DNA of 61,747 nucleotides, from the NCBI GenBank assembly GCA_026387895.1, contig JAPLKT010000152.1, positions 19,773 through 81,519 on the forward strand. Direction: 5' to 3'. This DNA comes from Gemmatimonadota bacterium. GTDB taxonomy: Bacteria; Gemmatimonadota; Gemmatimonadetes; Gemmatimonadales; Gemmatimonadaceae. The notes under the pieces were generated by a model. The model did no database searches. It saw only the letters and a list, made by a program, of their open reading frames with translations, and had not been told where the DNA came from. The stretch's first letter is position 1. Each line of letters begins with the position of its first letter. The translations under genes and the position numbers were made by a program. Positions 17,116 to 32,599 of this stretch are shown in pieces.

Positions 17116-17483
17116 AAGAACCTCGTGAGACGGGCGCAGCGTGAAGAGGGGGAACGACAGTCACAGATTATCGCTCATGGTCCAGCCCATAGCCAGTGGG
17201 CGCGTCTGGGCGGGGGGGGCAAGCCCCTCGCACTTGTCCCATTGTAACAGATTGCTTCGGACTACTTGCCGACTCTGGCTATGTGTCGCAGTATAGTTGG
17301 TTTCCTAGTTACTCCTTTGTTACGTTTTTGACGTATTGGGTGACTTGTCGCCGTAGTGACCGGCCTCTAGCGGGGCAGGGTCGCGCCGGCGTTTTGAGTG
17401 CGGCGGTCGTCGAGCCGCTGCAGTGGTTTTACACACCGATGGCACCACCGCCACGGGAAATAGTTTTACCAGGGAGATCGCGC
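17116..17483. other. Divergent intergenic region between amidase and SusC-like gene
   Basis: About 370 bases without a credible gene if the SusC-like protein starts at 17484. The SusC frame is open from 17196, but the product of that part has no signal or domain character. The middle (17240-17340) is less GC-rich and holds TATAGT and TTGACG elements without a well-spaced partner, so promoters for both directions are likely but not fixed. A G run lies near 17211-17219. Confidence 0.5.
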
Positions 17484-20400
17484 ATGATGGGAGAAACGCC
17501 AGGTTCATTTCGGCGGCGATGGGCGGCATACGGTACGGCGACTCGCCGTACCAGTGTCCGCCTGCTCGCCGGGCTCGGGTTACTCGGAAGCGTGTTGCAG
17601 AGCGCTCAGGCACAGGGGACTTCCGGCACGGTTGCCGGCAAGGTCACCGAAGGCGCCGCTGCAACGCCTGTGGTCGGAGCACGAGTCTCCGTCACCGGGA
17701 CACAACTCGCAGCACTGACGGGCACTGATGGCGCGTACTCAATCCGCGGCGTCACAGCTGGCGCGGTGGAGTTGCAGGTCGTCCGTTTGGGGTATCAGCC
17801 CCTGCGCTCCACGAGCACGGTTACGGCTGGCCAGACGGCCACAGTGAACTTCTCGATGGTCGCAGCGACGTACTCCCTGTCGGCCGTGGTCACCACGGCG
17901 ACTGGTCAACAGCGCAAGGTCGAACTCGCGAACTCCACGACGCAGATCTCGGTCGCTGAGAAGATGGAAGACCTCCCCATCAAGGACATGGGAACGCTCC
18001 TCTCGGGTCGCGCCTCGAGCGTTCAGGTCATCTCGACCGGCGCCACCGGCACGGGTTCGCGTATCCGTATCCGCGGTCAGAACTCATTCTCTCTGAGCAA
18101 TGACCCGATCGTCGTCATCGACGGTGTGCGCGCCACGGCGAGCACGAACAACGGACTCGGCGTCGGTGGTTCGGGCCCGTCCCGCCTCGACGACATCAAC
18201 CCCGCCGAAATCGAGACCATCGAAGTCGTGAAGGGACCGTCGGCCGCGACCCTCTATGGTACCGAGGCCGCCAACGGCGTCATCGTGATCACCACCAAGC
18301 GTGGCAAGTCGGGCAAGACCAAGTACAGCATGTCGATGGAAACTGGGCAGATCAACAACACGGCCAAGTATCCGGATCTCTGGTCACTGTGGGGCAAGAC
18401 CTCGCCGTCCACGACCTCCGCGATCTGCTTGCTCTCGGCCGTCTCGGCCAAGACCTGCGCCGTCGATTCGCTCTCGCACGGCAACGTACTGAACATGGCG
18501 AACCTGACGCCCATCGGCACCGGCGACCGGAAGAGCTACAACTTCCAGGCCTCGGGCGGCACCGACAAGATTCAGTTCTTCGTCGCGGCGCAGTCCGAGC
18601 AGGAGACTGGCATCTACAAGATGCCAAACAGCGAAGTCGCGCGTATCACGGCGCAGCGCGGCGTGACCGCCCTGCCGAGCGACATCATGCGGCCGAACGC
18701 CCTCGCGCGTAACAGCCTCCGCGCGAACCTCTCCGCGCAGCTCGCGCCGAAGTGGTTTATGCAGGTGTCGTCGTCGTACGTGAACAGCATGACCCGCTTG
18801 CCGCAGAACGAAGACAACGGCAACGGCCTGATGGTGGATGCGCTTGGCGGCCCGTGGCGCGGCGACTTGCTTGACGCGCAGGGTGACTCACTGCGTGGCT
18901 ATCGCTCGTTCATGATGGGCGACGTGCTGGCGCAGACGACCACGCAGAACATCGATCGCTTCATCAACAGCGTCACCTCGCAGTACAACCCGACGGAGTG
19001 GCTGTCGATGCACGCTGCGGTCGGGTCGGACTTCACGGTCCGTAACGACCTCTTCATCTCGAAGGTTGGCGAAGGTCCGAACACCGGCACCGTGCGCTCG
19101 GGCAACATCACGAGCGCGGCATTCAATATCAATCAGCAGACCGTGGACATGGGCGCCACCGCCAAGGCCCAGCTGTTCTCGTGGCTCCAGACGAGCACCT
19201 CGGTGGGCATGCAGTACATCCGCAACGCCACGGGCGCCACGCAGGGCACCGGCATTGGCCTGCCCCCGGGCGGCGTGACGGTCTCGGCCGCTGCGACGCG
19301 CAGCAGCACGCAGACGTTCTCGGAGAAGCGCACCCTCGGCTACTACGCCGAAGAACTCTTCACCATCAACGACAAGTTGTTCCTCACCGCTGGCGTGCGT
19401 CGCGATGCGGCGAGTGCCTTTGGTAAGAACTTCAACGCCGTGTTGTATCCGAAGTTCGGCGCCTCGTGGTTGATCTCTGAGCAGTCGTTCTTCCATAAGC
19501 CGTCGTACATCACCTCGCTGCGTTTGCGCGGCACGTACGGTGCCTCCGGTCAGATTCCGGGCGCAACCGACGCCGTGCTCTACTACTCGGCCGGTCCGAC
19601 CACGCTGACCACCGGCAGCGACACGCCAGGCGCGTCGATTGGCTCGCTCGGCAACAGCATCCTGAAGCCGGAGTTCTCGGCGGAAAAGGAGTTCGGCTTC
19701 GACTTGGCGATGTTCTCTGGCAAGACGAGCCTTGAGGTCACCTCGTACGACAAGACGACGACCGATGCCTTGATCAACAAGGAAATCGCGCCGTCTGTCT
19801 CCGGCTTGGCCAACCAGTTCGTCAACATCGGCAGCATTCAGAACACCGGTGTCGAACTGACGTGGAACCAGAAGGTGTTTGACAGCCGCCAGCTCGCGGT
19901 CGATTTCACCCTGACGGCCTCCACGAACAAGAACAAAATGCTCACCCTGGGCGCCGGCATCCTGCCGATCGCCAGCGGTAACCGCGGCACGCAGCGTAAC
20001 CTGCCGGGGTATCCGCTGTACGGGTTGTGGGACAAGAGCTACAAGATCAACGACCTCAACACGGACGGCATCATCACCCTGAACGAGCTCACGTTCAGCG
20101 ACACGGCCGTCTACCAGGGTGCGACGTTCCCGACCCGTGAACTCGCGTTCACCCCGTCGATCGAACTGCTCAACCACAAGCTGCGCATCTCGTCGCAGTT
20201 CGACAGCAAGTGGGGCTTCAAGAAGTTCAACAACACGCTGCGTCACCAGTGTCAGAACGGCGTCACCTGCCGTGGCCGCTATGACATCAGCGCCCCGCTC
20301 GAGATGCAGGCGGCCGCCCTGGCCACCACGCAGGCCGTGTACACCGGCATGTTCGAAGACGGCGCGTTCACCCGCTGGCGTGAAGTGTCGGTCTCGTACG

Positions 20401-20603
20401 AAATGCCGCAGGCGTGGGCCTCGCTCGTGCGCGCTCAGCGCTGGAGCGTGATCTTCACCGGCCGGAACCTCGGCGTGAAGACCAACTACACCGGTGTCGA
20501 TCCCGAAGCAGCGCAGTCCAACAGCGACCAGCGCGGTAACGAGGAGTACTTCTCGACGCCGCCGCTGCGCACGTTCATGCTCCGCATGAACTTTACTTTC
20601 TAA
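17484..20603 (+). CDS. SusC/RagA-family TonB-linked outer-membrane transporter
   Basis: Outer-membrane channel that imports oligomers or peptides in partnership with a SusD-like lipoprotein, energised by TonB. The ATG at 17484 has AGGGAG seven bases upstream and places a signal peptide at the N-terminus ([24 protein letters not shown]). Next come a carboxypeptidase-regulatory-like domain ([10 protein letters not shown]...[11 protein letters not shown]...GAYSIRGV), a plug domain with the SusC-type segments [21 protein letters not shown] and [27 protein letters not shown], and a long beta-barrel ending in the aromatic FMLRMNFTF. The 1039 residues are normal for the family. The SusD-like gene follows 13 bases later. 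The cargo is unknown. Confidence 0.93.
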   Translation: [1039 protein letters not shown]

Positions 20604-20616
20604 GCCGAGCGCATAT

Positions 20617-21978
20617 ATGAACTACTTTATCTCTGCGCGCCGCGCCCTTCGGCCGGTCGGCGCTCTAGCAGCCGCGATGGTGCTGGCCAGTTGCAGCAAG
20701 GACATCCTGAACGTGGCCACGCCCGACGTGCTGTCGGCGTCGGTGCTCAACAGCAGCCTCGGCGCGACCACGATGCGCAACGGTGCGTATCAGGATTTCG
20801 TCGTCGCGTTCTCGGGCACTATCGACGGGTACCTCGTGTCGACCGAAAACATGGGCGACGCGATCAAGACCGTGGATACGTTCGCGGATCGTTACTTCAC
20901 GAACGAACGTCGCCAGAATGAAAATCTGCGCGGCGCCGCGAGCACGATGTACAACGCTATGCATCTCGCCCGGGCCGGCTTATCGACCTCGATCATTGCT
21001 TGGGGCAAGGTGAAGCCGGCAACCACGGCAGCGAAGGACTCGCTCGCCGAGATGTACGCGGTGCGTGGGTACATGGAGGATTTCTTTGCCGAAGCGTATT
21101 GCTCTGGCGTGCCGTTCAGCTCGGTTGCCGCTGACGGATCGTTCGTCTACGGCTTGCCGTTGACGACCACGCAGATGCTCACGACGGCTTCTGCGTCCTT
21201 CGACACCGCCACGACGCTCTCCACGGGGACCAACCCCAAGTACCTCGCGGCTATTGGTAAGGCGCGTGCCCTGCTGAACCAGGGGCAGTTCTCGGCGGCC
21301 GCGGCCGCGGTGGCTGCGGTGCCGACGACGTACAAGTACACCATTTTCCACTCGGTGGCGACAGGCCGTCAGCAGAACGGCATCTACAATGCCACGTTCG
21401 TCAACGGATCGCGGTACACCGTGGGCACGAGCGAAGGCACCAACGGGCTCGCCTACCTGACCACGCCAGCGGATCCCCGCGCCCCGTGGCTTGCGTCGAC
21501 AACCCGTACGGGGTTTGACGGCACGAACCGCAACCTCCCGATCGAGCAGAAGTACACGGGGCAGAACTCGCCGGTGATCTTGGCCGACGGCATCGAGGCT
21601 CGCCTGATCGAGGCCGAAGCCAAGTTGCAGGGTGGGGCGCAGGCGGATCGCGATTCGGTCTTCGCGCGTCTCAATGTGCTTCGCGCCACCGGCTTGGCCG
21701 CTGCGATCACGCCGCTTGCGGCGTCGCCGACCACGCAGGCTGCCGCGGTCGACATGCTCTTCAAGGAGCGCGCCCTGTGGCTGTGGCTCACCGGGCATCG
21801 CCTCGGCGATCTGCGTCGCTTGGTCCGTCAGTATGGCCGTGACGCAGAAGCCGTGTTCCCGACGGGCGCGGTGGATGTGCGAGTTGGCAACAACTACGGC
21901 ACCGACGTCAACATGATCGTGCCGATCACGGAAAAGAACAATCCGAGCTTTACGGGTTGCCTCGACCGCAAGGCGTAA
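20617..21978 (+). CDS. SusD/RagB-family surface lipoprotein
   Basis: Substrate-binding lid of the SusC transporter. The 453-residue protein has a lipoprotein signal with lipobox LASC (Cys about 26), followed by helical SusD-like sequence: MYNAMHLARAGLS, LAEMYAVRGYMEDFFAEAYCSGVPFS, and near the C-terminus MLFKERALWLWLTGHRLGDLRRL, which matches the conserved helix of the family. It is shorter than many SusD proteins (about 500-600). It forms an operon with the SusC gene upstream; a terminator follows. Confidence 0.9.
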   Translation: MNYFISARRALRPVGALAAAMVLASCSKDILNVATPDVLSASVLNSSLGATTMRNGAYQDFVVAFSGTIDGYLVSTENMGDAIKTVDTFADRYFTNERRQNENLRGAASTMYNAMHLARAGLSTSIIAWGKVKPATTAAKDSLAEMYAVRGYMEDFFAEAYCSGVPFSSVAADGSFVYGLPLTTTQMLTTASASFDTATTLSTGTNPKYLAAIGKARALLNQGQFSAAAAAVAAVPTTYKYTIFHSVATGRQQNGIYNATFVNGSRYTVGTSEGTNGLAYLTTPADPRAPWLASTTRTGFDGTNRNLPIEQKYTGQNSPVILADGIEARLIEAEAKLQGGAQADRDSVFARLNVLRATGLAAAITPLAASPTTQAAAVDMLFKERALWLWLTGHRLGDLRRLVRQYGRDAEAVFPTGAVDVRVGNNYGTDVNMIVPITEKNNPSFTGCLDRKA

Positions 21979-22051: not shown

Positions 22052-22906
22052 ATGTCGAGAGTTTTCGCGCGTCGGACCGCACTCGCGCTGTGCACGCTGT
22101 TGCTGACACCGATTGTCACGCACGCCCAAACGAAGTCGGCGGCACCATTGGTCGAGTTCGAGAACATGACCTGGCCCGAAGTAAAGGCTGCGATTGCCGC
22201 GGGGAAGACCACGGCGCTTTTCTACACGGGTGGCACCGAACAGCGTGGGCCGCAGAACATCAACGGCGGCCACAACTACATGGCGAAGGCCACGGTGAAG
22301 GAGCTCGCCGTCCGGCTCGGCAACGCGATCGCGATGCCGGTGCTCGCCTACACGCCGAATAATGCGAGTGCTCAGCTGCCCGGGACTATTGGGCTCACGC
22401 CGGAGCTGCTCTCGGCGATGCTGGAGCGCATGTCGGAAGAAGCCATCAAGACTGGATTTAAGAACGTCGTGCTGATGGGAGACCATGGGGGTGGGCAGCC
22501 GAACGCCTACAAGTCCGTGGCCGAGAAGCTTGACGCGAAGTATGCGCCGCAGGGCGTGCATGTGTTTTTCGCGGATTCGATTTACGCTCCGCGGCAGGCT
22601 GCGTTTGACGAATGGCTGGCCAAGAACGGCTACCCGACCGGCGGCCACGCGAGTCTTATTGACACGTCGGAGCTGCTGTACCTGTGCGCCGATGTCTGCG
22701 TGCGGAAAGAGCTCGTGTCGACCGCGTTGGGCGACCCCGTTCAGGCCCCAGGGGCGGCGCGTGATCCAAATGCCACGCGCCTGAACAACGGCATCACCGG
22801 CGACGCGCGGAGGTCGACGGCCGAGCTCGGTAAACGGATGTTTGATTTGAAGATGGAATACGGTATTCGGCAGATTCAGCGACTGATTCCGCCGCCGACG
22901 AAATAA
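22052..22906 (+). CDS. Exported creatininase-family protein
   Basis: A 284-residue protein with a signal peptide (RTALALCTLLLTPIVTHAQ) and the creatininase/creatinine amidohydrolase fold: the GGTEQRGP segment, GTIGLTPELLSAMLERM, and VVLMGDHGGGQ. In classical members the first motif (ExHGPHxPxxxD) supplies metal ligands; here the matching residues read E-Q-R and the distal Asp is replaced in GGHN, so metal binding must differ or be weaker. The His of GDHGG is kept. Real activity on creatinine is unlikely to be safe to assume; cyclic amide hydrolysis is the family's general chemistry. It stands alone between two terminators, downstream of the SusCD pair. Confidence 0.82.
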   Translation: MSRVFARRTALALCTLLLTPIVTHAQTKSAAPLVEFENMTWPEVKAAIAAGKTTALFYTGGTEQRGPQNINGGHNYMAKATVKELAVRLGNAIAMPVLAYTPNNASAQLPGTIGLTPELLSAMLERMSEEAIKTGFKNVVLMGDHGGGQPNAYKSVAEKLDAKYAPQGVHVFFADSIYAPRQAAFDEWLAKNGYPTGGHASLIDTSELLYLCADVCVRKELVSTALGDPVQAPGAARDPNATRLNNGITGDARRSTAELGKRMFDLKMEYGIRQIQRLIPPPTK

Positions 22907-22985: not shown

Positions 22986-23942
22986 TTAGCGACCGCCTGC
23001 CTTCATACCGATCTCCACCGCCTTGAAGCCTGGGTCCCCCCAGTTCATCACGAACACGGAGAATCCCTGCTTCATCCGCATCTCGATGTCGGTGGCGTTT
23101 GCCGGGAAGCCGCAGGCGATCTTGAACTCCTTGCAGGCGGCGAGCACCTGCTGGATTGCCCCTTCCCAACCCTTCTCGTCAAAGGTGCGCTTGCCGTCGG
23201 CGTCGGTCGTCGTGAACACCCCGCGAAGCGTCCCCGCACCGGGCCAAAGCACGCCTATGCCTGGCACCGCAGCGATTTCTCGAACGTGCGCGAGCCCTTC
23301 CTTGCTCTCGATGATCGTCCAGTTCGTGAGTTCGCCGTTTGGATTGAGCGGATATAGGTCGGCCTTCGCCTTGTACTCCTTATCCGACACCCCCCAGTAG
23401 GCGGGGGCGTTCCCCACCGCGTCGGGGCGCGTTCCGCTCTGTGCCTTGAAGCGCATCGCTGCGAGCCCGACCTTCAGCTCCGCCGCGCTCTCCACCTCGG
23501 GGAACATCACGGTGGTCACGCCGAGGTCTAGCGCCTTGCCGATGCGTTCTGCGGCGAGGGTCGGGTTCTCGGCGATCTTATGGGTTTTCACGGCGAGGGG
23601 GTGGGCCCAGCGCTGAGCGGGAGTCCCGCCGTCCTGCATCCCCTTTACGAAGTCCAAGTAGCCCGCGTAGCCCTTGTCCCAGTCCCCTTCCATGCCGCCG
23701 TCAAAGACGAAATCCGAGGGGGTATGCGCCAGGGCGTCGGCGGCCAGCTGGGCCGCGGTTTTGGTCGGGACCGTGGTGGTATCACCCCGGGGGCGACGGT
23801 TGGAGGGCGCATAAAGACCGAAGACCGGCTTATGCTGCGCCAGTAGCTCGGCCACCGGGTTCAGGTGACGGGCGCCCTGATGCAACGCTAGCAGAGCGGG
23901 CAGCGTAATGACAATCAGCATTGGAATCCAACGAACGCGCAC
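22986..23942 (-). CDS. HpcH/HpaI aldolase-fold protein with N-terminal signal segment
   Basis: A 318-residue protein that starts with a hydrophobic signal or anchor (RWIPMLIVITLPALLALH) and continues as the HpcH/HpaI aldolase/citrate lyase TIM barrel: TTVMFPEVESAAEL and WTIIESKEGLAHVREIAAVPGIGVLWPG. In active class II members a Glu (IET motif, kept here as IIES) and an Asp (GPxDLS motif) bind the metal; here the second motif is PGAGTL, without the Asp, and the usual catalytic His of the DxEH segment is also absent (DGGMEGD). Export of an aldolase fold is itself unusual. It may be a non-catalytic or repurposed member. Confidence 0.78.
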   Translation of the reverse strand: MRVRWIPMLIVITLPALLALHQGARHLNPVAELLAQHKPVFGLYAPSNRRPRGDTTTVPTKTAAQLAADALAHTPSDFVFDGGMEGDWDKGYAGYLDFVKGMQDGGTPAQRWAHPLAVKTHKIAENPTLAAERIGKALDLGVTTVMFPEVESAAELKVGLAAMRFKAQSGTRPDAVGNAPAYWGVSDKEYKAKADLYPLNPNGELTNWTIIESKEGLAHVREIAAVPGIGVLWPGAGTLRGVFTTTDADGKRTFDEKGWEGAIQQVLAACKEFKIACGFPANATDIEMRMKQGFSVFVMNWGDPGFKAVEIGMKAGGR

Positions 23943-24160: not shown

Positions 24161-26617
24161 GTGAGAGCTATCACCGTTGCAACGGTTTCCGGACTGTTGC
24201 TCGCGTCCGTTTGTGTTGCCTACGCCGTGCGTCCTGCGGCGCTGGTCGCCGCGCGCGCGCCTGTCACGCATGCGCTGATTGTCTCCCCGGAGGCGCTCAC
24301 CTCGGTCGTCCAGAAGCGGTGCGCAGAGTGCCATAACGACGACAAACGTCGCGGCGACCTCTCGCTTGAGACCTTTGATGTGGCGGCGGCGGCCAAGTCG
24401 CCAGCACTCTCGGAAAAGATCATTGCCAAGCTCCGCGCAGGGATGATGCCGCCGCCGGGGTGGCAAAAGCCGGGTGGTGACACGCTCGCGGCCTTGGCCT
24501 CAACGCTTGAACGGCTAGTTGACGCGGCCGCCATCATCAATCCGAACCCGGGGTCCCGCAGCTTCCAGCGGTTGAACCGCTCCGAGTACGAGAAGTCGGT
24601 GCACGATTTGCTGACGCTCGATATTGACGCCGGCTCGTGGCTCCCGCTCGACACCAAGAGCAACAACTTCGACAACATCTCCGACGTGCAGGTCCCCTCG
24701 GCGACGACGCTCGACGCGTACATGGACGCCGCTGCGGAAGTGAGTCGCATGGCCGTGGGCGACCCGAAGGCCACCCGTGCCGCCAAGACGTACAAGATTC
24801 CGCGGCTTGCGTCACAAATGGATCAGGTGGACGGAGCGCCGTTTGGCACACGTGGTGGGATCAGCGTGATGCACAACTTCCCCGCCGACGGTCAGTACGT
24901 GCTGTCAACTATGATGCACTCGATTCCGACCGGCCAGATTTTTGGTTCCGCCGCGCCGTTTGACGAGATGATTGAGTTCTCCGTGAACGGCGAGCGGGTC
25001 GCGATGATCCCCGTCGACCGCGGGATGTCGCAGGCCGATCCGACCGGCATGGACGTGAAGACCCCGCCGATCCAGCTCCGTGCTGGCCCGCAGCGTGTGA
25101 CCGCGGCGTTCGTCCGCACCTTTGATGGGCCGGTGAACGACAACCTTGCCCCGATCGCCAACAGCATTGCCGACACCCAGATTGGGTCGCAGAGCGGTGT
25201 GACCGCGCTGGCGCATCTCCGCGAAGTGACCGTCACGGGTCCTTTCAACGCGACCGGCGTGTCGGACACGCCGAGCCGTAAGCGGATTTTCAGCTGCCGT
25301 CCGTTGTCGCCGGCAGAGGCGCGGCCCTGTGCGGAGCGCATTGTGGCGACCCTCGGTGGCGCCGCGTATCGTCGGGCGCTGAACGCGAACGACGTGACCG
25401 GGCTGATGAAGTTCTACGATCGCGGCGCCAAGGAAGGAGGCTTCGAGATCGGCGTGCGTCGCGCGCTCGAGGCGATGCTTTCGAGCCCGCATTTCATTTT
25501 CCGCGTTGAAGAGATTCCGAAGGGCGCCAAGGCTGGGTCACGGGTCGCGGTCGGCGATGCTGATCTCGCAACGCGGCTTGCGTTCTTCATCTGGGGAACG
25601 CCGCCGGACGAGAAGTTGATGGCGGTGGCCCGCGCTGGTGGGTTGAGCACGCCGGAAGGACTTCGGACGCAGGCCGCGCGGTTGCTCGCCGACCCGCGGA
25701 GCGACGCCCTTTCCACGCGATTCGCTGCCCAGTGGTTGCGCCTGCAGGACATCGAGAAGGTGCATCCGGATGCATTGCAGTTCCCGAACTTCCGTCAGCA
25801 GCTCGCCGACGCCATGCGTCACGAGACGGAACTGTTCTTCATGAGCATCGTGCGCGAGAACCGGAGCGTGCTCGACCTGCTCTCCGCGAACTACACGTAC
25901 GTCAACGACGAGCTGGCCCAGCACTACGGCATGCCCGGGATCACGGGGAGCAACTTCCGTCGGGTGCAGTATGCCGATAATCGCCGGAGCGGGCTCTTGG
26001 GTCAGGGCAGCATTCTGACACTGACCTCGCATGCGAATCGCACGTCGCCTGTGCTCCGCGGTAAGTGGGTCATGGAAGTGATCCTCGGATCGCCGCCGCC
26101 ACCGCCGCCGCCGAATGTGCCGGACCTGGAAAAGACGGGCGAGGCCAAGGACGGACATTTCCTCAGCACTCGCGAACGGATGGAAATGCACCGCGCGAAC
26201 CCGGCGTGCGTGTCGTGCCACAAGGTCATTGACCCCATTGGCTTGGCACTCGACAACTTTGACGTGACCGGCCAGTGGCGCATTCGCGAGAACGGCGCGT
26301 CGCTCGACACGCAAGGCCAGCTCTATGATGGCTCCGCGGTGTCGTCGCTGCCGGAGCTGCGGGCCGCATTGCTCAAGCACCCCACGCCGATCATTCGCAC
26401 CTTCACGCAGAACCTCATGGCATACGCCCTCGGGCGCCGCGTGGAGTTCTACGACCAGCCGACCATCCGCAAGATTCAGCATGATGCTGAGCCCAGCGGC
26501 TACAAGTTTGACCGGTTTGTGATGGGCATCGTATCGAGCGATGCATTCCGTATGCGTCGCGTGCCGGCGGCAGTTTCCGCCGACGCTGCGACACGCAACT
26601 CCAGCGGCACCCGCTAA
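24161..26617 (+). CDS. Planctomycete-type di-heme cytochrome c protein (DUF1587/1592/1588/1585)
   Basis: An 818-residue exported protein starting at GTG, with a signal segment (VSGLLLASVCVAYAV). A PSCyt1-like heme site, CAECH (C54-C57-H58), is followed by DUF1587-like sequence (SFQRLNRSEYEKSVHDLL), then DUF1595/DUF1592-like parts (CAERIVATLGGAAYRR, LEAMLSSPHFIFRVEE, LATRLAFFIWGTPPDE, FAAQWLRLQDIE), DUF1588 with a second heme site CVSCHK (C683-C686-H687), and DUF1585 (FTQNLMAYALGRRVE). These families have no firm biochemical role; two c-type hemes point to electron transfer in the periplasm or at the surface. The DUF1552 gene follows after 21 bases and the ankyrin gene overlaps that, making a three-gene operon. 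Confidence 0.9.
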   Translation: MRAITVATVSGLLLASVCVAYAVRPAALVAARAPVTHALIVSPEALTSVVQKRCAECHNDDKRRGDLSLETFDVAAAAKSPALSEKIIAKLRAGMMPPPGWQKPGGDTLAALASTLERLVDAAAIINPNPGSRSFQRLNRSEYEKSVHDLLTLDIDAGSWLPLDTKSNNFDNISDVQVPSATTLDAYMDAAAEVSRMAVGDPKATRAAKTYKIPRLASQMDQVDGAPFGTRGGISVMHNFPADGQYVLSTMMHSIPTGQIFGSAAPFDEMIEFSVNGERVAMIPVDRGMSQADPTGMDVKTPPIQLRAGPQRVTAAFVRTFDGPVNDNLAPIANSIADTQIGSQSGVTALAHLREVTVTGPFNATGVSDTPSRKRIFSCRPLSPAEARPCAERIVATLGGAAYRRALNANDVTGLMKFYDRGAKEGGFEIGVRRALEAMLSSPHFIFRVEEIPKGAKAGSRVAVGDADLATRLAFFIWGTPPDEKLMAVARAGGLSTPEGLRTQAARLLADPRSDALSTRFAAQWLRLQDIEKVHPDALQFPNFRQQLADAMRHETELFFMSIVRENRSVLDLLSANYTYVNDELAQHYGMPGITGSNFRRVQYADNRRSGLLGQGSILTLTSHANRTSPVLRGKWVMEVILGSPPPPPPPNVPDLEKTGEAKDGHFLSTRERMEMHRANPACVSCHKVIDPIGLALDNFDVTGQWRIRENGASLDTQGQLYDGSAVSSLPELRAALLKHPTPIIRTFTQNLMAYALGRRVEFYDQPTIRKIQHDAEPSGYKFDRFVMGIVSSDAFRMRRVPAAVSADAATRNSSGTR

Positions 26618-26638
26618 CCCCGTAGCACGAGGAATTCG

Positions 26639-28030
26639 ATGACGTACATCAGTGGCAAGGCACTTCCGCGTCGTACCTTCCTGCAAGGGATGGGTGCGAC
26701 CGTCGCACTCCCCTTCCTCGACGCCATGTTCCCGGCGGGCAAGCCGACGTGGCGGATCACGTCGCAGCAGGCGCCGCGCATGGTCGCGATCGAGATGGTG
26801 CACGGCGCGGCGGGTTGCAATGAACTCGGCGCATCGCTGAACTACTGGTCGCCAGCAGCCACCGGACGCGCGTTCGATCTCTCGCCATCGGCGTTGAGCC
26901 CGCTCGAGCCGTTCCGCGACTACCTGACGATTATCAGCAACACGGATTGCCGTGAAGCCGAACCGAACGCCCCGAAGGAGATCGGTGGCGATCACTTCCG
27001 GTCGAGCGCGGTGTACCTGACGCAATCGCACCCCAAGCAGACGGAAGGGTCGGACATTCATGTGGGCGAGTCGATTGACCAGATCTACGCCCGCAAGTTC
27101 GGACAGACGACGCCGATTCCGTCGATGCAGTTGTGCATTGAGAACGTGGACCAGGCGGGCGGATGCGCGTATGGCTATGCCTGCGTGTACACCGACTCGA
27201 TTTCGTGGGCCTCGCCCACGGAGCCGCTGCCCGTGATTCGCGACCCGCGCGTGGCCTTCGAGAAGTTGTTCGGGGTTGGCGGGTCGACGGAAGAGCGTTT
27301 TGCCCGTCGGCAGTCGCGTCGCAGCATTCTCGACTGGGTCGCGAGCGAGATGGTGTCGCTCAAGGGCTCGCTCGGCGCTGACGACCGGACGCGTCTCGAC
27401 CGGTATCTGGAAGACATCCGCGAAGTCGAGCGCCGCATTCAGGCAATCGAAACGCGCAATATCAGCGGCGAACAGCGCGACATGCCCGAAGCGCCGGCCG
27501 GTGTGCCGGATTCGTTCTCGGAGCACGTGGCGGTGATGTTCGACATTCAGGCGCTGGCCTTTGCGTCCGATATCACGCGCGTGTTCTCGTTCAAGATGGG
27601 CCGCGACGGCTCGGCGCGTACGTATCCTGAGAGCGGCACCGACAAGCCGTTCCACCCTGCCTCGCACCACGGCGGCAACAAGAAGGGCGTGAGCGATTTC
27701 CAGATGATCAACAAGTACCATGTGGCGCAGTTGCCGTACTTCCTGAACAAGCTCAAGGCGATTCAGGAGAACGATGGCAACTTGCTCGACAAGACGATGA
27801 TCATTTACGGATCGCCGATGGCCGACAGCAACCTGCACAGCCATCGCCGCTGCCCGCTGATCGTGGTGGGTAAGGCCGACGGCCGCATGGGAGGCAACGT
27901 GCACATCAAGGCGCCGGATGGCACGCCGATGGCGAATGCGATGTTGAGCATGATGCACACGCTCGGCGTCAACGACATGAAGTCGCTTGGTGACAGCACC
28001 GGAACCCTGAACCTCTCGTCTCATGCGTAA
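26639..28030 (+). CDS. Tat-exported DUF1552 protein
   Basis: A 463-residue DUF1552 protein. The N-terminus carries a twin-arginine signal (LPRRTFLQGMGATVALPFLDAMF), so it is folded before export, often a sign of a cofactor or metal. Family-like stretches include IEMVHGAAGCNE, NTDCREAEPNAPKEIGGDH, SIDQIYARKFG, LDRYLEDIREVERRI and the C-terminal SPMADSNLHSHRRCPLIVVG. The overall fold recalls the sulfatase-like DUF1501 group, but that is inference. Ribosome-binding site GAGG lies about 8 bases upstream. It is encoded between the di-heme cytochrome and the ankyrin protein, overlapping the latter by 8 bases. Confidence 0.88.
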   Translation: MTYISGKALPRRTFLQGMGATVALPFLDAMFPAGKPTWRITSQQAPRMVAIEMVHGAAGCNELGASLNYWSPAATGRAFDLSPSALSPLEPFRDYLTIISNTDCREAEPNAPKEIGGDHFRSSAVYLTQSHPKQTEGSDIHVGESIDQIYARKFGQTTPIPSMQLCIENVDQAGGCAYGYACVYTDSISWASPTEPLPVIRDPRVAFEKLFGVGGSTEERFARRQSRRSILDWVASEMVSLKGSLGADDRTRLDRYLEDIREVERRIQAIETRNISGEQRDMPEAPAGVPDSFSEHVAVMFDIQALAFASDITRVFSFKMGRDGSARTYPESGTDKPFHPASHHGGNKKGVSDFQMINKYHVAQLPYFLNKLKAIQENDGNLLDKTMIIYGSPMADSNLHSHRRCPLIVVGKADGRMGGNVHIKAPDGTPMANAMLSMMHTLGVNDMKSLGDSTGTLNLSSHA

Positions 28031-29897
28031 GGCTGTGTTCATCGCGATGGCGCTGTTGCTGGTCGCGGTCTCTGCACCTGCGGCGGTTACGACCGTCGAT
28101 GCGCCGGTCGCTGATGCGGTCATGAAGCATGACGCGGCCCGCCTCAAGGCGTTGTTGCGTCAGGGTGCTGATGTGAACGCGGCTCAGGGTGACGGCATGA
28201 CGGCGTTGCACTGGGCCGCGATGTCGGGCGACGCCGAAACGGTGACGATGCTGGTCGCGGCTGGCGCGCGACTCGAAGCCGTGACGCGCAATGGGAGCTA
28301 TGCGCCGTTGCATCTGGCGGCGCGCAGCGGAAGTGTTGCCGCGGTCAAGGTATTGCTTGATGCGGGCGCCAACGTAAAGGCGGCCACGTCGTCGGGTGGC
28401 ACGACGCCGCTCCACTTCGCCGCGTCGCTTGGCGATAAGGCGATTGTCGCGGCACTGCTCGACAAGGGCGCGCCGGTTGATGCGAAAGAGACGGCGTTCG
28501 GTCAGACGCCGATCATGTGGGCCGCGGCGTACGATCGGGCTGCGGCGGTGGAGTTGTTGGCGGCTCGCGGCGCGGACTTGAAGGTGGTGTCGAAGGTTGA
28601 GGACGTCCCAGCCCGAGAGAAGACCGATCGCGCGGCGCTGACGTTGCGCACGCGAAAGGTTGCGGCGGTGAAAGCCGCCGAGGCGCCTCCGGCTCCCGCC
28701 GGGCGCGGCGCTGGTACTGCACCGGTGACGGCTGAGGATAGCGCCCAGGCCAAGAAGGCTGCGGCCGCGCCGATCGCGGCGACTGGGCCGCGCGGTGGTG
28801 GCGCAGGGGGCGCTGGTGGTGGTGGCCGCGGTGGACGTGGCGGTTCGCCGTCCGACTCGAGCGGTGGCATGGCGATTGGTACGCGTGGCGCGAGCTACGG
28901 CGATCTCGTGGGGAACAAGGGCGGGCTCACGCCGCTCCTGTTCGCCGTGCGCGAAGGGAACATGAAGACCGCCGATGTGCTGCTGAAGGCCGGTGCTGAT
29001 GTGAATCAGGTGAGCGCGGGCGATCACACCAGCCCCCTGCTTATGGCCACGATCAACGGGCAGTTTGATCTGGCGAAGATGCTCTTGGCGAAGGGTGCGA
29101 ACCCGAAGCTCGCGAGCGACGCCAATGCGACGCCCTTGTATGCGACCATCAACGTGCAGTGGGCGCCGAAGTCGCTGTATCCGCAGCCGGTGGCACAGCA
29201 GCAACAGCAGACGACCCACTTGGAGCTCATGGAGGCGCTGCTGAAGGCTGGCGCCGATCCGAATGTGCGCCTCAAGAAGCATCTCTGGTACATGTCGTAC
29301 AACTTCGATTTGCTCGGCGTGAACATGCAGGGATCGACACCGTTCTGGCGTGCTGCCTACGGGCTCGACGTCCCGGCGATGAAGCTGCTCGTCAAGTATG
29401 GCGCAAATCCGAATATTCCGACTGAGAAGCCGGTGGGACGCACGCTCGGTGATGATGCAAGCCCCGCAGATGCCGACAGTACTGCCGGTGACAAATCAGG
29501 GTTGCCGCCGATTCCAGCAGGTGGCCCGGGTGTATTTCCGCTCCATGCAGCGAGCGGCGTTGGGTACGGTGAGGGCTACGCCGCGAATGCGCACATGCAT
29601 GCGCCGGATTCGTGGTTCGCCGCCGTCAAGTATCTGATTGAGGATTTGCATCTCGATCCGAATGCCCGGGACTTCAACGGCTACAACGCCATCCATCATG
29701 CCGCCGCTCGCGGCGACGATCAGCTGATTGACTATCTCGTGTCGAAGGGGGTCGATGTCATGGCCGTCTCGCGCAAGGGACAGACGACCGCAGATATGGC
29801 AAACGGGCCGGTGCAGCGTATCCCGCCCTTTGTGGAAACGTTGGCGCACCTCGAGAAGCTCGGCTCGAAGAACAACCACAAGTGCAAGAGCTGCTAG
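28023..29897 (+). CDS. Exported ankyrin-repeat protein with Gly-rich linker and CxxC tail
   Basis: A 624-residue protein with a signal peptide (MRKAVFIAMALLLVAVSAP). Ankyrin repeats form two blocks: about residues 25-195 (GDGMTALHWAAMSGD, APLHLAARSGS, TTPLHFAASLGD, TPIMWAAAYDR) and about 295-610 (LTPLLFAVREGN, TSPLLMATINGQ, STPFWRAAYGLD, YNAIHHAAARGD). A Gly/Arg-rich linker at about 258-280 separates them. The protein ends in CKSC, the only CxxC, without the His needed for a c-type heme; a metal site or disulfide is possible. The start lies inside the DUF1552 gene, so translation is coupled. Ankyrin proteins bind other proteins; here the cytochrome or DUF1552 protein is the obvious candidate partner. 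Confidence 0.88.
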   Translation: MRKAVFIAMALLLVAVSAPAAVTTVDAPVADAVMKHDAARLKALLRQGADVNAAQGDGMTALHWAAMSGDAETVTMLVAAGARLEAVTRNGSYAPLHLAARSGSVAAVKVLLDAGANVKAATSSGGTTPLHFAASLGDKAIVAALLDKGAPVDAKETAFGQTPIMWAAAYDRAAAVELLAARGADLKVVSKVEDVPAREKTDRAALTLRTRKVAAVKAAEAPPAPAGRGAGTAPVTAEDSAQAKKAAAAPIAATGPRGGGAGGAGGGGRGGRGGSPSDSSGGMAIGTRGASYGDLVGNKGGLTPLLFAVREGNMKTADVLLKAGADVNQVSAGDHTSPLLMATINGQFDLAKMLLAKGANPKLASDANATPLYATINVQWAPKSLYPQPVAQQQQQTTHLELMEALLKAGADPNVRLKKHLWYMSYNFDLLGVNMQGSTPFWRAAYGLDVPAMKLLVKYGANPNIPTEKPVGRTLGDDASPADADSTAGDKSGLPPIPAGGPGVFPLHAASGVGYGEGYAANAHMHAPDSWFAAVKYLIEDLHLDPNARDFNGYNAIHHAAARGDDQLIDYLVSKGVDVMAVSRKGQTTADMANGPVQRIPPFVETLAHLEKLGSKNNHKCKSC

Positions 29898-29924: not shown

Positions 29925-29963
29925 ACAACGCCCCGATGCTCACGCGAGCGTCGGGGCGTTGTG
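29925..29963. terminator. Hairpin terminator between convergent genes
   Basis: A 17-base arm (29925-29941) pairs with 29946-29962, one mismatch, loop ACGC. It separates the ankyrin gene from the convergent MBL-fold gene. The T tract is weak (TTGTGT), so termination strength is uncertain. Confidence 0.7.
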
Positions 29964-30560: not shown

Positions 30561-30683
30561 AGCGTCAGGCGCCGAGCGCAGCGAGGGGAGAGTCCCAGTT
30601 CCATCCCCTGAAACTAGCCATTACCGACGGGACTCCAAGCGTCCGGCCAGTCTGGCGCGTATTCTAATGTTAGGCAGGACCGG

Positions 30684-30724
30684 TGCGGTCCCAGTCCTGC
30701 GGTCCCAGTCCTGCGGTCCCAGCC
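30684..30724. repeat. Tandem repeat, 14-bp unit, 3 copies
   Basis: Two perfect copies of tgcggtcccagtcc (30684-30697, 30698-30711) and a third that is truncated and ends differently (30712-30724). It lies between the divergent MBL gene and the M28 peptidase gene, ending about 30 bases before the peptidase start. Unlike the other intergenic repeats it carries no stop triplet. Confidence 0.88.
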
Positions 30725-30754
30725 TTGAGACGACCACTTTTCGACGGAGCCTCC

Positions 30755-32599
30755 ATGCGTTCCCCATTTATTCCTACCCGAGCCATCCTGCTCGGTCTCG
30801 CCGTGGCCCCCGCCTTGCTGGGCGCGCAGAGTGCCGGCAAGTTGAATCGTTTCGGCAATCCTTCGACGATGAAGCCGACTCCGACGTCGGCCGCGATTAC
30901 CCCGAAGGACCTCCAGATTCGCCTGTACCAGTTTGCGGACGACTCAATGCTCGGTCGTCAGGTTGGGCGTATCGGCAACATGAAGGGGACGACGTATATC
31001 GCCGCCGAGGTGAAGCGCCTTGGTCTGATTCCGGCTGGGGACAACGGCACCTATTTCCAGGTGCTCCCGTTCCATACCAAGCAGTACACGAACCATTCGC
31101 GGCTGACGGCCAATGGCAATCCGCTCGCGTGGAACAAGGATTGGGTAGCAGTGCCGGGCAGTGCAGCGCCGAAGTCGATCAGCAATGTTGAGGTGATTTT
31201 CGGCGGTACGCAGGGTGATACGACCAAGCAGATTTCCGCCGCGTTGGCGAACGGGAAGTTTGTGGTCGTGCTCCCGGCCGCTCCGGTTGCTGCGGCTGCT
31301 GGCGGTCGTGGTGGCCCGGGTGGCCCGGGCGGTGGCGGTGGACGCGGTGGGTTCGCGGCGCCGTCGCCGTCGCGTTTTGCTGGGGCTGTGGCCGTCGCGA
31401 CGGTTGATTTGGATGGGCTGACGGATGCGCAGCGGGTGGCGATCAATGTGCCGACTGTTGCGGCTCAGGGTGGTGCCGGCGGGCGTGGCGGGCGTGGCGG
31501 GCGTGCTGGTGGTGCGGGCGCGCCGATTGATTCGCTGGCGATCCTTCGTGGCCAGATCGATCAGCTGACGCCGCAGGCGCAGTTGCGTGTGACGAAGGCT
31601 GCGGCCGCCGAGCTGTTTGGCGGACGTGGAATCGACGGGATGACGGCTGGTACGCGTGGCGGCACGGTGTCGGCCTCGCTCGACTTTGTGGAGCTCCCGA
31701 CCGAGTGGGCGCGCAACGTGGTGGCGATTCTCCCCGGGAGTGATCCGGTGCTGAAGAATCAGTATGTCGCGATCGGCGCGCATAACGACCACGTCGGTTT
31801 CACGGGGGTGCCGGTAGACAAGGATTCGTTGAAGGTGTTCAACGACATCCGCAACAAGATGTTGCTTGAGAACAAGATGATTGCTCTGACGCAGGCACAG
31901 CTCGCCGCGATCAGGGTGAACATGGATAGCATCCGCAAGGTTGTTCCGAAGGCACGACTCGACTCGATCAATAACGGTGCCGACGACGATGGCTCGGGCT
32001 CGATGGGTGTGCTGGAGATCGCCGAGTACATGGCGAGCATGAAGGTGAAGCCGAAGCGTTCGACGCTGTTCGTGTGGCACACGGGCGAGGAAGGTGGGCT
32101 GATTGGGTCGGCGTTCTTCACGGCCAACCCCACGGTGCCGATCGACTCTGTGGTCGCGCAGCTCAACATCGACATGATTGGGCGTGGGCGCGCGGAAGAT
32201 CTTCCGGGCGGTAGCCCAGATTACTTGGGCGTGGTGGGTTCGTACTTCGATTCCAAGGATCTTGGTGAAGTCGTCAAGTCGGTGAACGTCAAGCAGGCCA
32301 ATCCGCTGCAGCTCGACTACAAGTTTGATGATTCGTTGTCCTGGAGCGGCTACAACAATATTTATGGCCGTAGCGACCACTATAACTACGCCAAGGTTGG
32401 GGTACCGATCGCGTTCTTCTTTACCGGGCTGCACGGTGATTACCACCAGAAGACGGACGAACCGGAGTTCATTGACTACCCGCATTATGCGAAGATCACC
32501 AACTATATCGAGAAGCTGGTAGAAGAGGTTGGGAACGGCCCACGCCCGCGCATGAACGGGAGCAAGCCGGCGAAGCCGCCGAAGCCGACGGTTCCGTAA
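30755..32599 (+). CDS. Secreted M28-family metallopeptidase
   Basis: Zinc aminopeptidase-type enzyme acting outside the cytoplasm. The ATG at 30755, with GGAG just upstream, gives 614 residues with a signal peptide (RAILLGLAVAPALLGAQS); the longer frame from 30683 runs through a tandem repeat and is rejected. M28 zinc ligands are visible: His in AIGAHNDHVG, Asp in NNGADDDGSGS, the catalytic and ligand Glu pair in HTGEEGG, Asp in LNIDMIG, and the final His in GLHGDYHQKTDE. A PA-like insert domain before the peptidase domain holds two Gly/Arg-rich runs (about residues 179-202 and 239-257) made of near-perfect 9-bp DNA repeats. The stop codon lies in a 12-bp tandem repeat. Confidence 0.9.
   Translation: MRSPFIPTRAILLGLAVAPALLGAQSAGKLNRFGNPSTMKPTPTSAAITPKDLQIRLYQFADDSMLGRQVGRIGNMKGTTYIAAEVKRLGLIPAGDNGTYFQVLPFHTKQYTNHSRLTANGNPLAWNKDWVAVPGSAAPKSISNVEVIFGGTQGDTTKQISAALANGKFVVVLPAAPVAAAAGGRGGPGGPGGGGGRGGFAAPSPSRFAGAVAVATVDLDGLTDAQRVAINVPTVAAQGGAGGRGGRGGRAGGAGAPIDSLAILRGQIDQLTPQAQLRVTKAAAAELFGGRGIDGMTAGTRGGTVSASLDFVELPTEWARNVVAILPGSDPVLKNQYVAIGAHNDHVGFTGVPVDKDSLKVFNDIRNKMLLENKMIALTQAQLAAIRVNMDSIRKVVPKARLDSINNGADDDGSGSMGVLEIAEYMASMKVKPKRSTLFVWHTGEEGGLIGSAFFTANPTVPIDSVVAQLNIDMIGRGRAEDLPGGSPDYLGVVGSYFDSKDLGEVVKSVNVKQANPLQLDYKFDDSLSWSGYNNIYGRSDHYNYAKVGVPIAFFFTGLHGDYHQKTDEPEFIDYPHYAKITNYIEKLVEEVGNGPRPRMNGSKPAKPPKPTVP

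Follow-up and report, generated by a model that had tools for sequence, protein, structure and literature searches.

We analysed a window of 61,747 nucleotides from a Gemmatimonadota bacterium (NCBI GenBank assembly GCA_026387895.1, contig JAPLKT010000152.1, positions 19,773 to 81,519); "the window" below means this whole stretch, and all positions are counted from its first letter. Three adjacent open reading frames on its + strand, here called genes A, B and C, encode exported proteins, as judged by eye from their signal sequences. Gene A (24161..26617, GTG start) encodes an 818 aa dihaem protein with the domain order PSCyt1-DUF1587-DUF1595-DUF1592-DUF1588(PSCyt3)-DUF1585; gene B (26639..28030) encodes a 463 aa DUF1552 (HXXSHH) protein with a Tat-type signal and a predicted alkaline-phosphatase/sulfatase-type fold; and gene C (28023..29897) encodes a 624 aa ankyrin-repeat protein. 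The gap between A and B is 21 bases and that between B and C is -8 bases, i.e. C starts 8 bases inside B, so the ORFs confirm the three-gene exported operon described in a previous sequence-only reading. A GC-rich inverted repeat 3' of gene C (29927..29961), read by eye, is a possible transcription terminator. The source genome (2.85 Mb, 96% complete) contains one match to PF07586 and one to PF07631, all of its Ank_2 matches lie inside gene C, the only ankyrin protein found there, and Cytochrom_C_asm (Ccm-type) cytochrome c assembly genes are present.

All six domains of gene A scored above the Pfam cut-off. The first haem c site, CAECH, occupies residues 54-58 (24320..24334, + strand), and the invariant Met96, in an MPPP motif, is likely to be the axial ligand of this haem; the second site, CVSCH, occupies residues 683-687 in the PSCyt3/DUF1588 domain (26207..26221, + strand). 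Both of these sites, which had been noticed previously, are invariant in 61 aligned rows, and divergent full-length A proteins also retain two CxxCH sites. The structure model of A (pLDDT 83) contains, at residues about 202-365 (24764..25255, + strand), a jelly roll that by structure match resembles the CBM6/35/36 families (VIA-align Z 9.7 over 107 residues with rmsd 2.8 against CBM36 7ay3). With the whole chain as query, Foldseek returned no match except for this jelly roll; as the helical parts were covered only within that chain, the null result is no evidence of a new fold. A sequence search of A and B against the PDB gave no match. Gene A most likely encodes an electron-transfer protein with two c-type haems and a domain resembling carbohydrate-binding modules.

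Protein B matches PF07586/HXXSHH with 284.5 bits (cut-off 30), the family motif being HPASHH at residues 339-344 (27653..27670, + strand). The Tat signal proposed for it was found as the motif RRTFLQG, in which the twin arginine R11-R12 (26669..26674, + strand) is invariant in 69 aligned relatives. The structure model (mean pLDDT 69, pTM 0.79) is matched along most of its length by sulfatases and related phosphodiesterases with Z about 13 to 13.8 (2qzu: Z 13.8, 272 residues, rmsd 4.8; 6fny: Z 13.8, 242 residues, rmsd 4.0), with Foldseek E-values of 2e-3 at best and others weaker; as modelled, B carries an alkaline-phosphatase/sulfatase superfamily fold. Alignment of B by hhalign to sulfatases and to DUF1501 gave no significant full alignment with the shallow profiles used, so the relation to sulfatases is drawn from motif and fold searches only.

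The nucleophile motif of sulfatases in related genomes is CTPSRAGLLTG, and at equal spacing the B protein of the window has HFRSSAVYLTQ and divergent members have, for example, HARASTRFLTG. The catalytic Cys/Ser/Thr nucleophile is absent from B and its position is taken by His119 (26993..26995, + strand) in 59/59 rows, a result of moderate certainty because the alignment is by motif; with a pLDDT below 50 in the nucleophile region and the hhalign null, this assignment is one of motif spacing. His119, D147, H339 and H400 are all invariant (59/59 rows), and H343, H344 and H422 nearly so. The corresponding stretch of DUF1501 proteins, read by eye, is HEPSLLMMNTG, which suggests that the DUF1552 and DUF1501 families may both have exchanged the nucleophile for His. 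Three cysteines of B, Cys166, Cys176 and Cys182, lie at 27134..27184 (+ strand); the latter two are present in nearly all members, and Cys166 in most members of a clade defined below. The DUF1501 proteins at loci L218-L223 read HEPS...TG or SHFDAQ...TG, with the nucleophile position seemingly His.

In protein C, ankyrin repeats form separate blocks flanking a poorly conserved Gly/Ala-rich linker (28635..28910, + strand), and the chain ends in NNHKCKSC followed by the stop codon, so both the split blocks and the terminal CKSC noted from the sequence were seen. Within the window, an M28 peptidase at 30683-32599 has a long Gly/Arg/Ala-rich insert resembling this linker. A first set of relatives comprised 76 complete C proteins: a CxxC, here CKSC (29883..29894, + strand), occurs in the last 10 residues of 76/76, and in 67/76 its cysteines are the only ones in the mature part of the protein. 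Directly behind the second Cys, the tails seen have a stop, E, Q or G and never His, i.e. the c-type haem motif CxxCH is absent from the tail of gene C.

The nearest relatives are Gemmatimonadota. The order A-B-C recurs among 79 loci retrieved using B; across related Gemmatimonadota loci, C comes after B at no more than 600 bp in 83 of the 85 that were testable, A comes before B at no more than 300 bp in 74 of 83, and several loci contain tandem double triads. The first refuting condition set by the sequence-only reading, an ankyrin gene that is rarely adjacent to the other two, was thus clearly not borne out. At the level of whole genomes, PF07586 is present in 113 of 298 from the phylum, and a 75-residue profile of the C end, run over the same 298 genomes, matched 111/113 of those with DUF1552 (the two lacking it being G059 and G225) and 0/185 of those without (lists compared by eye). 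The pairwise distance matrices of A, B and C from 56 triads correlate at 0.90-0.95, to which shared species history contributes, and gene order and the CxxC end persist across dozens of loci whose proteins are about 50-80% identical. The association is beyond chance, and the triad is a conserved, co-inherited unit; because the three genes travel together through the phylum, the three secreted proteins probably form one working unit outside the cell. At six loci (L055, L088, L093, L101, L105 and L108) the triads are Gemmatimonadota-like and the record titles, perhaps wrong, name Gammaproteobacteria or Candidatus Kuenenia.

The claim that the ankyrin member always ends in CxxC stood for nearly all of this clade but failed outside it. 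Divergent DUF1552 genes are likewise neighbours of A, and most of them adjoin an ankyrin gene whose product lacks the CxxC end; the same holds for a DUF1552 gene on a Novosphingobium plasmid, which lies beside A; no ankyrin neighbour was seen for the A-B pairs of Planctomyces and of a Sphingobium plasmid. A tree built from 59 B proteins places the CxxC type in a single supported group; of its 39 rows, one has a tail that is unclear and another lacks a neighbour. The CxxC tail thus marks a single clade, and the ankyrin neighbours outside it are without the tail. The existence of A-B pairs lacking the tail or the ankyrin gene also indicates that C is dispensable for the core function.

We compared Cys166 of B with the tail of C in 176 distinct B-C pairs. 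Where CxxC lies at the very end of C (0 or 1 residue after it), B has Cys166 in 146/146 parsed pairs, and two unparsed pairs and one mis-called frame agree on inspection (about 149/149). In the 16 pairs with an extended tail, defined as at least 2 residues after CxxC (3 to 8 in those seen), residue 166 of B is Ser (15) or Thr (1) and never Cys (0/16). A coupling of Cys166 to the CxxC clade as a whole was rejected on finding five Ser/Thr rows, which were exactly those with extended tails. The rule relating Cys166 to tail position survived wider sampling with one exception, L151 (8082-10049), where the DUF1552 neighbour has Cys166 and the ankyrin partner has no CxxC end; the missing tail may be a frameshift, an assembly error or a real loss. 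The 16 extended-tail pairs form one clade. Only two concordant changes can be counted as independent on the tree (sign test p 0.5), and we treat the covariation as a precise lead rather than proof that Cys166 and the tail would meet.

The genes around the triad would fit uptake and redox chemistry. Directly upstream (window 17196-21978) are a SusC-like TonB receptor and a SusD-like protein; this nutrient-uptake pair is also found ahead of several related triads. Next come an exported creatininase-family protein (22052-22906) and, on the opposite strand, an exported HpcH/HpaI-aldolase-like protein (22986-23942); genes of the latter two kinds recur near other triads, in clusters from 11-12 loci. 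Some flanking-gene clusters were disregarded as probable antisense artefacts of simple ORF calling. Several Gemmatimonadaceae have the order SusC-SusD-A-B-C (SusC and SusD being named by sequence character), then a HupE/UreJ-cytochrome fusion and a PQQ-dehydrogenase-like gene; the fusion, a HupE/UreJ membrane protein joined to a cytochrome c domain, was found downstream of the triad at L040:9544-11199 and at 14 similar loci. On a Sphingobium herbicidovorans plasmid (L142:8352-12498), the order is DUF1592-DUF1552-cytochrome c'-cytochrome b, near aromatic-degradation-type genes, and the two cytochrome genes suggest a possible contact with the quinone pool; this species could also offer a tractable host for the family. 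The neighbourhood would suit small organic compounds being taken up and oxidised in the periplasm, but does not prove it.

We propose, with a confidence that is evenly balanced, that A is the electron carrier, that a His-rich metal site and the substrate are both held by B, and that C organises the complex, its CxxC acting at the cysteines of B. A, B and C would form one exported, co-inherited module in which the nucleophile of B is replaced by an invariant His and a His-rich centre (H119, HxxSHH, H400 and H422) stands in its stead, so that B would bind metal and substrate and exchange electrons with A, performing no ester hydrolysis. C would dock on B, and perhaps also on A, and its flexible terminal CxxC could reach C166/C176/C182 of B to serve as a thiol switch, a tether or a shared metal ligand; the substrate would probably be a sugar or another small organic compound. 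We infer complex formation, the direction of electron flow, the metal, the substrate and the role of the tail. The extracytoplasmic redox complex of the sequence-only reading is upheld in so far as the module fits the haem sites, the Tat/Sec-type signals, the Sphingobium cytochromes and the PQQ-dehydrogenase-like gene, and its assignment of the catalytic or cofactor-bearing part to DUF1552 gains indirect support only, from the alkaline-phosphatase/sulfatase-type fold, the His in place of the nucleophile and the invariant His cluster. The scaffold role that it gave to the ankyrin protein may hold, but a part in assembly or maturation, as for AnkB and Cj1386, would be compatible as well.

A bolder form of this proposal, which we consider unlikely, is that the CxxC tail of C inserts into B and, with Cys166 beside C176/C182, makes a composite inter-protein metal or disulfide centre. 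If true, the tail of an ankyrin subunit would complete the active site of a redox enzyme, and a sulfatase fold would have been turned to electron transfer.

A lesser possibility than the proposed module, though a real one, is that C, instead of being a structural subunit, helps to assemble or mature its haem neighbour and that its CxxC handles haem, metal or disulfides during maturation of A or B. There are precedents for an ankyrin gene that adjoins the gene of a haem protein and has this kind of role: AnkB of P. aeruginosa, a periplasmic ankyrin protein, is a proposed partner of the catalase KatB, and the ankyrin protein Cj1386 of C. jejuni is proposed to traffic haemin to KatA, according to PMC7567364 (citing Howell 2000 and Flint 2015). 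A maturation role would also suit both the near-exclusive use of cysteine in the CxxC of mature C and the core pairs that occur without C in Sphingobium and Planctomyces. However, the triad has no catalase, A has c-type haem for which the genome has its own Ccm-type system, and C tracks DUF1552 tightly, with a Cys166 covariation that would point to B and not to the haem protein. Tat export suggests that a cofactor is inserted before export, which for B speaks mildly against delivery of a metal by C.

It is improbable that B is an ordinary alkaline-phosphatase superfamily hydrolase, i.e. a sulfatase or phosphatase, with A a mere neighbour. Such an enzyme would account for the structural similarity of B to sulfatases and phosphodiesterases (Z about 13), but every row has His where the nucleophile would be, true sulfatases of related genomes retain CxPSR, and B is constantly paired with a dihaem cytochrome. 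B is most likely not to be classed as a hydrolase, as far as these motifs indicate.

More improbable still is a module that feeds electrons to a lytic polysaccharide monooxygenase (LPMO), as suggested for Cbp2D of Cellvibrio japonicus. According to the available parts of the sources, Cbp2D combines a DUF1587 domain, CxxCH cytochrome domains and a CBM (PMC8981238), its X183 cytochrome can reduce an LPMO (PMC8981238, PMC12542752) and it is required for growth on insoluble cellulose (PMC12542752), and A has similar CxxCH domains and a CBM-like domain. We rejected donation to an AA10 LPMO, as AA10 (PF03067) genes were found in 0/121 Gemmatimonadota genomes, the source genome included; moreover, the Teredinibacter X183 domains failed to drive LPMO activity in the portion of PMC10916295 available. 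Covalent attachment of haem to the terminal CxxC of C, which would be an unusual site, is scarcely credible. In its favour, NNHKCKSC resembles the haem motif NPACVSCH of A minus the His; against it, cytochrome c maturation normally requires CxxCH, and none of the tails seen has the His.

A literature search on the triad proteins found no function for this unit, in line with the view that DUF1592-group and DUF1552 proteins lack a proven one: none was reported in the literature found. Planctomycete-type cytochromes with DUF1552/DUF1501 neighbours are widespread among environmental bacteria, and no chemistry is known for them. The available part of PMC5615132 reports that PSCyt3-encoding genes of Verrucomicrobia and Planctomycetes usually adjoin a particular family of unknown genes, with no function known, and describes PSCyt genes with CBMs in Verrucomicrobia, likewise without a known function. 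That neighbour family is, we infer, DUF1552, and the PSCyt3-DUF1552 pairing of the window resembles arrangements already reported for Verrucomicrobia. The multi-domain cytochrome is of the same kind in both, but an ankyrin third gene and a CxxC tail are not described in that part of the account. The Sphingobium herbicidovorans plasmid pMSHV likewise has adjacent DUF1592 and DUF1552 genes, but these are followed by cytochrome c' and cytochrome b genes with no ankyrin gene, and its DUF1552 protein is about 25% identical. Cbp2D and Teredinibacter TERTU_2913 are, like A, secreted multidomain proteins with CxxCH cytochrome domains (PMC8981238, PMC12542752, PMC10916295), and Cbp2D, which the PSCyt architecture of A resembles, also has a DUF1587 domain and a carbohydrate-binding module (PMC8981238); as far as those sources are available they mention no DUF1552 or ankyrin partner, and they place both proteins in an LPMO context, which is absent here. 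AnkB and Cj1386 resemble C as ankyrin proteins linked to a haem protein, AnkB being periplasmic (PMC7567364), and exported C (signal judged by eye) is likewise encoded near haem gene A, two genes downstream of it with B between; in the available text their partner is a catalase without DUF1552, whereas the neighbours of C are DUF1592 and DUF1552 proteins. Against this background, the ankyrin third partner and its CxxC tail look new, as do, on the structure models, the CBM6/35/36-like domain of A and, for DUF1552, the predicted alkaline-phosphatase/sulfatase fold with an invariant His at the putative nucleophile position. The fixed third partner, the thiol tail, the fold and the lost nucleophile together turn these genes into a testable hypothesis, namely that B would be no hydrolase and that its Cys166 would meet the tail of C.
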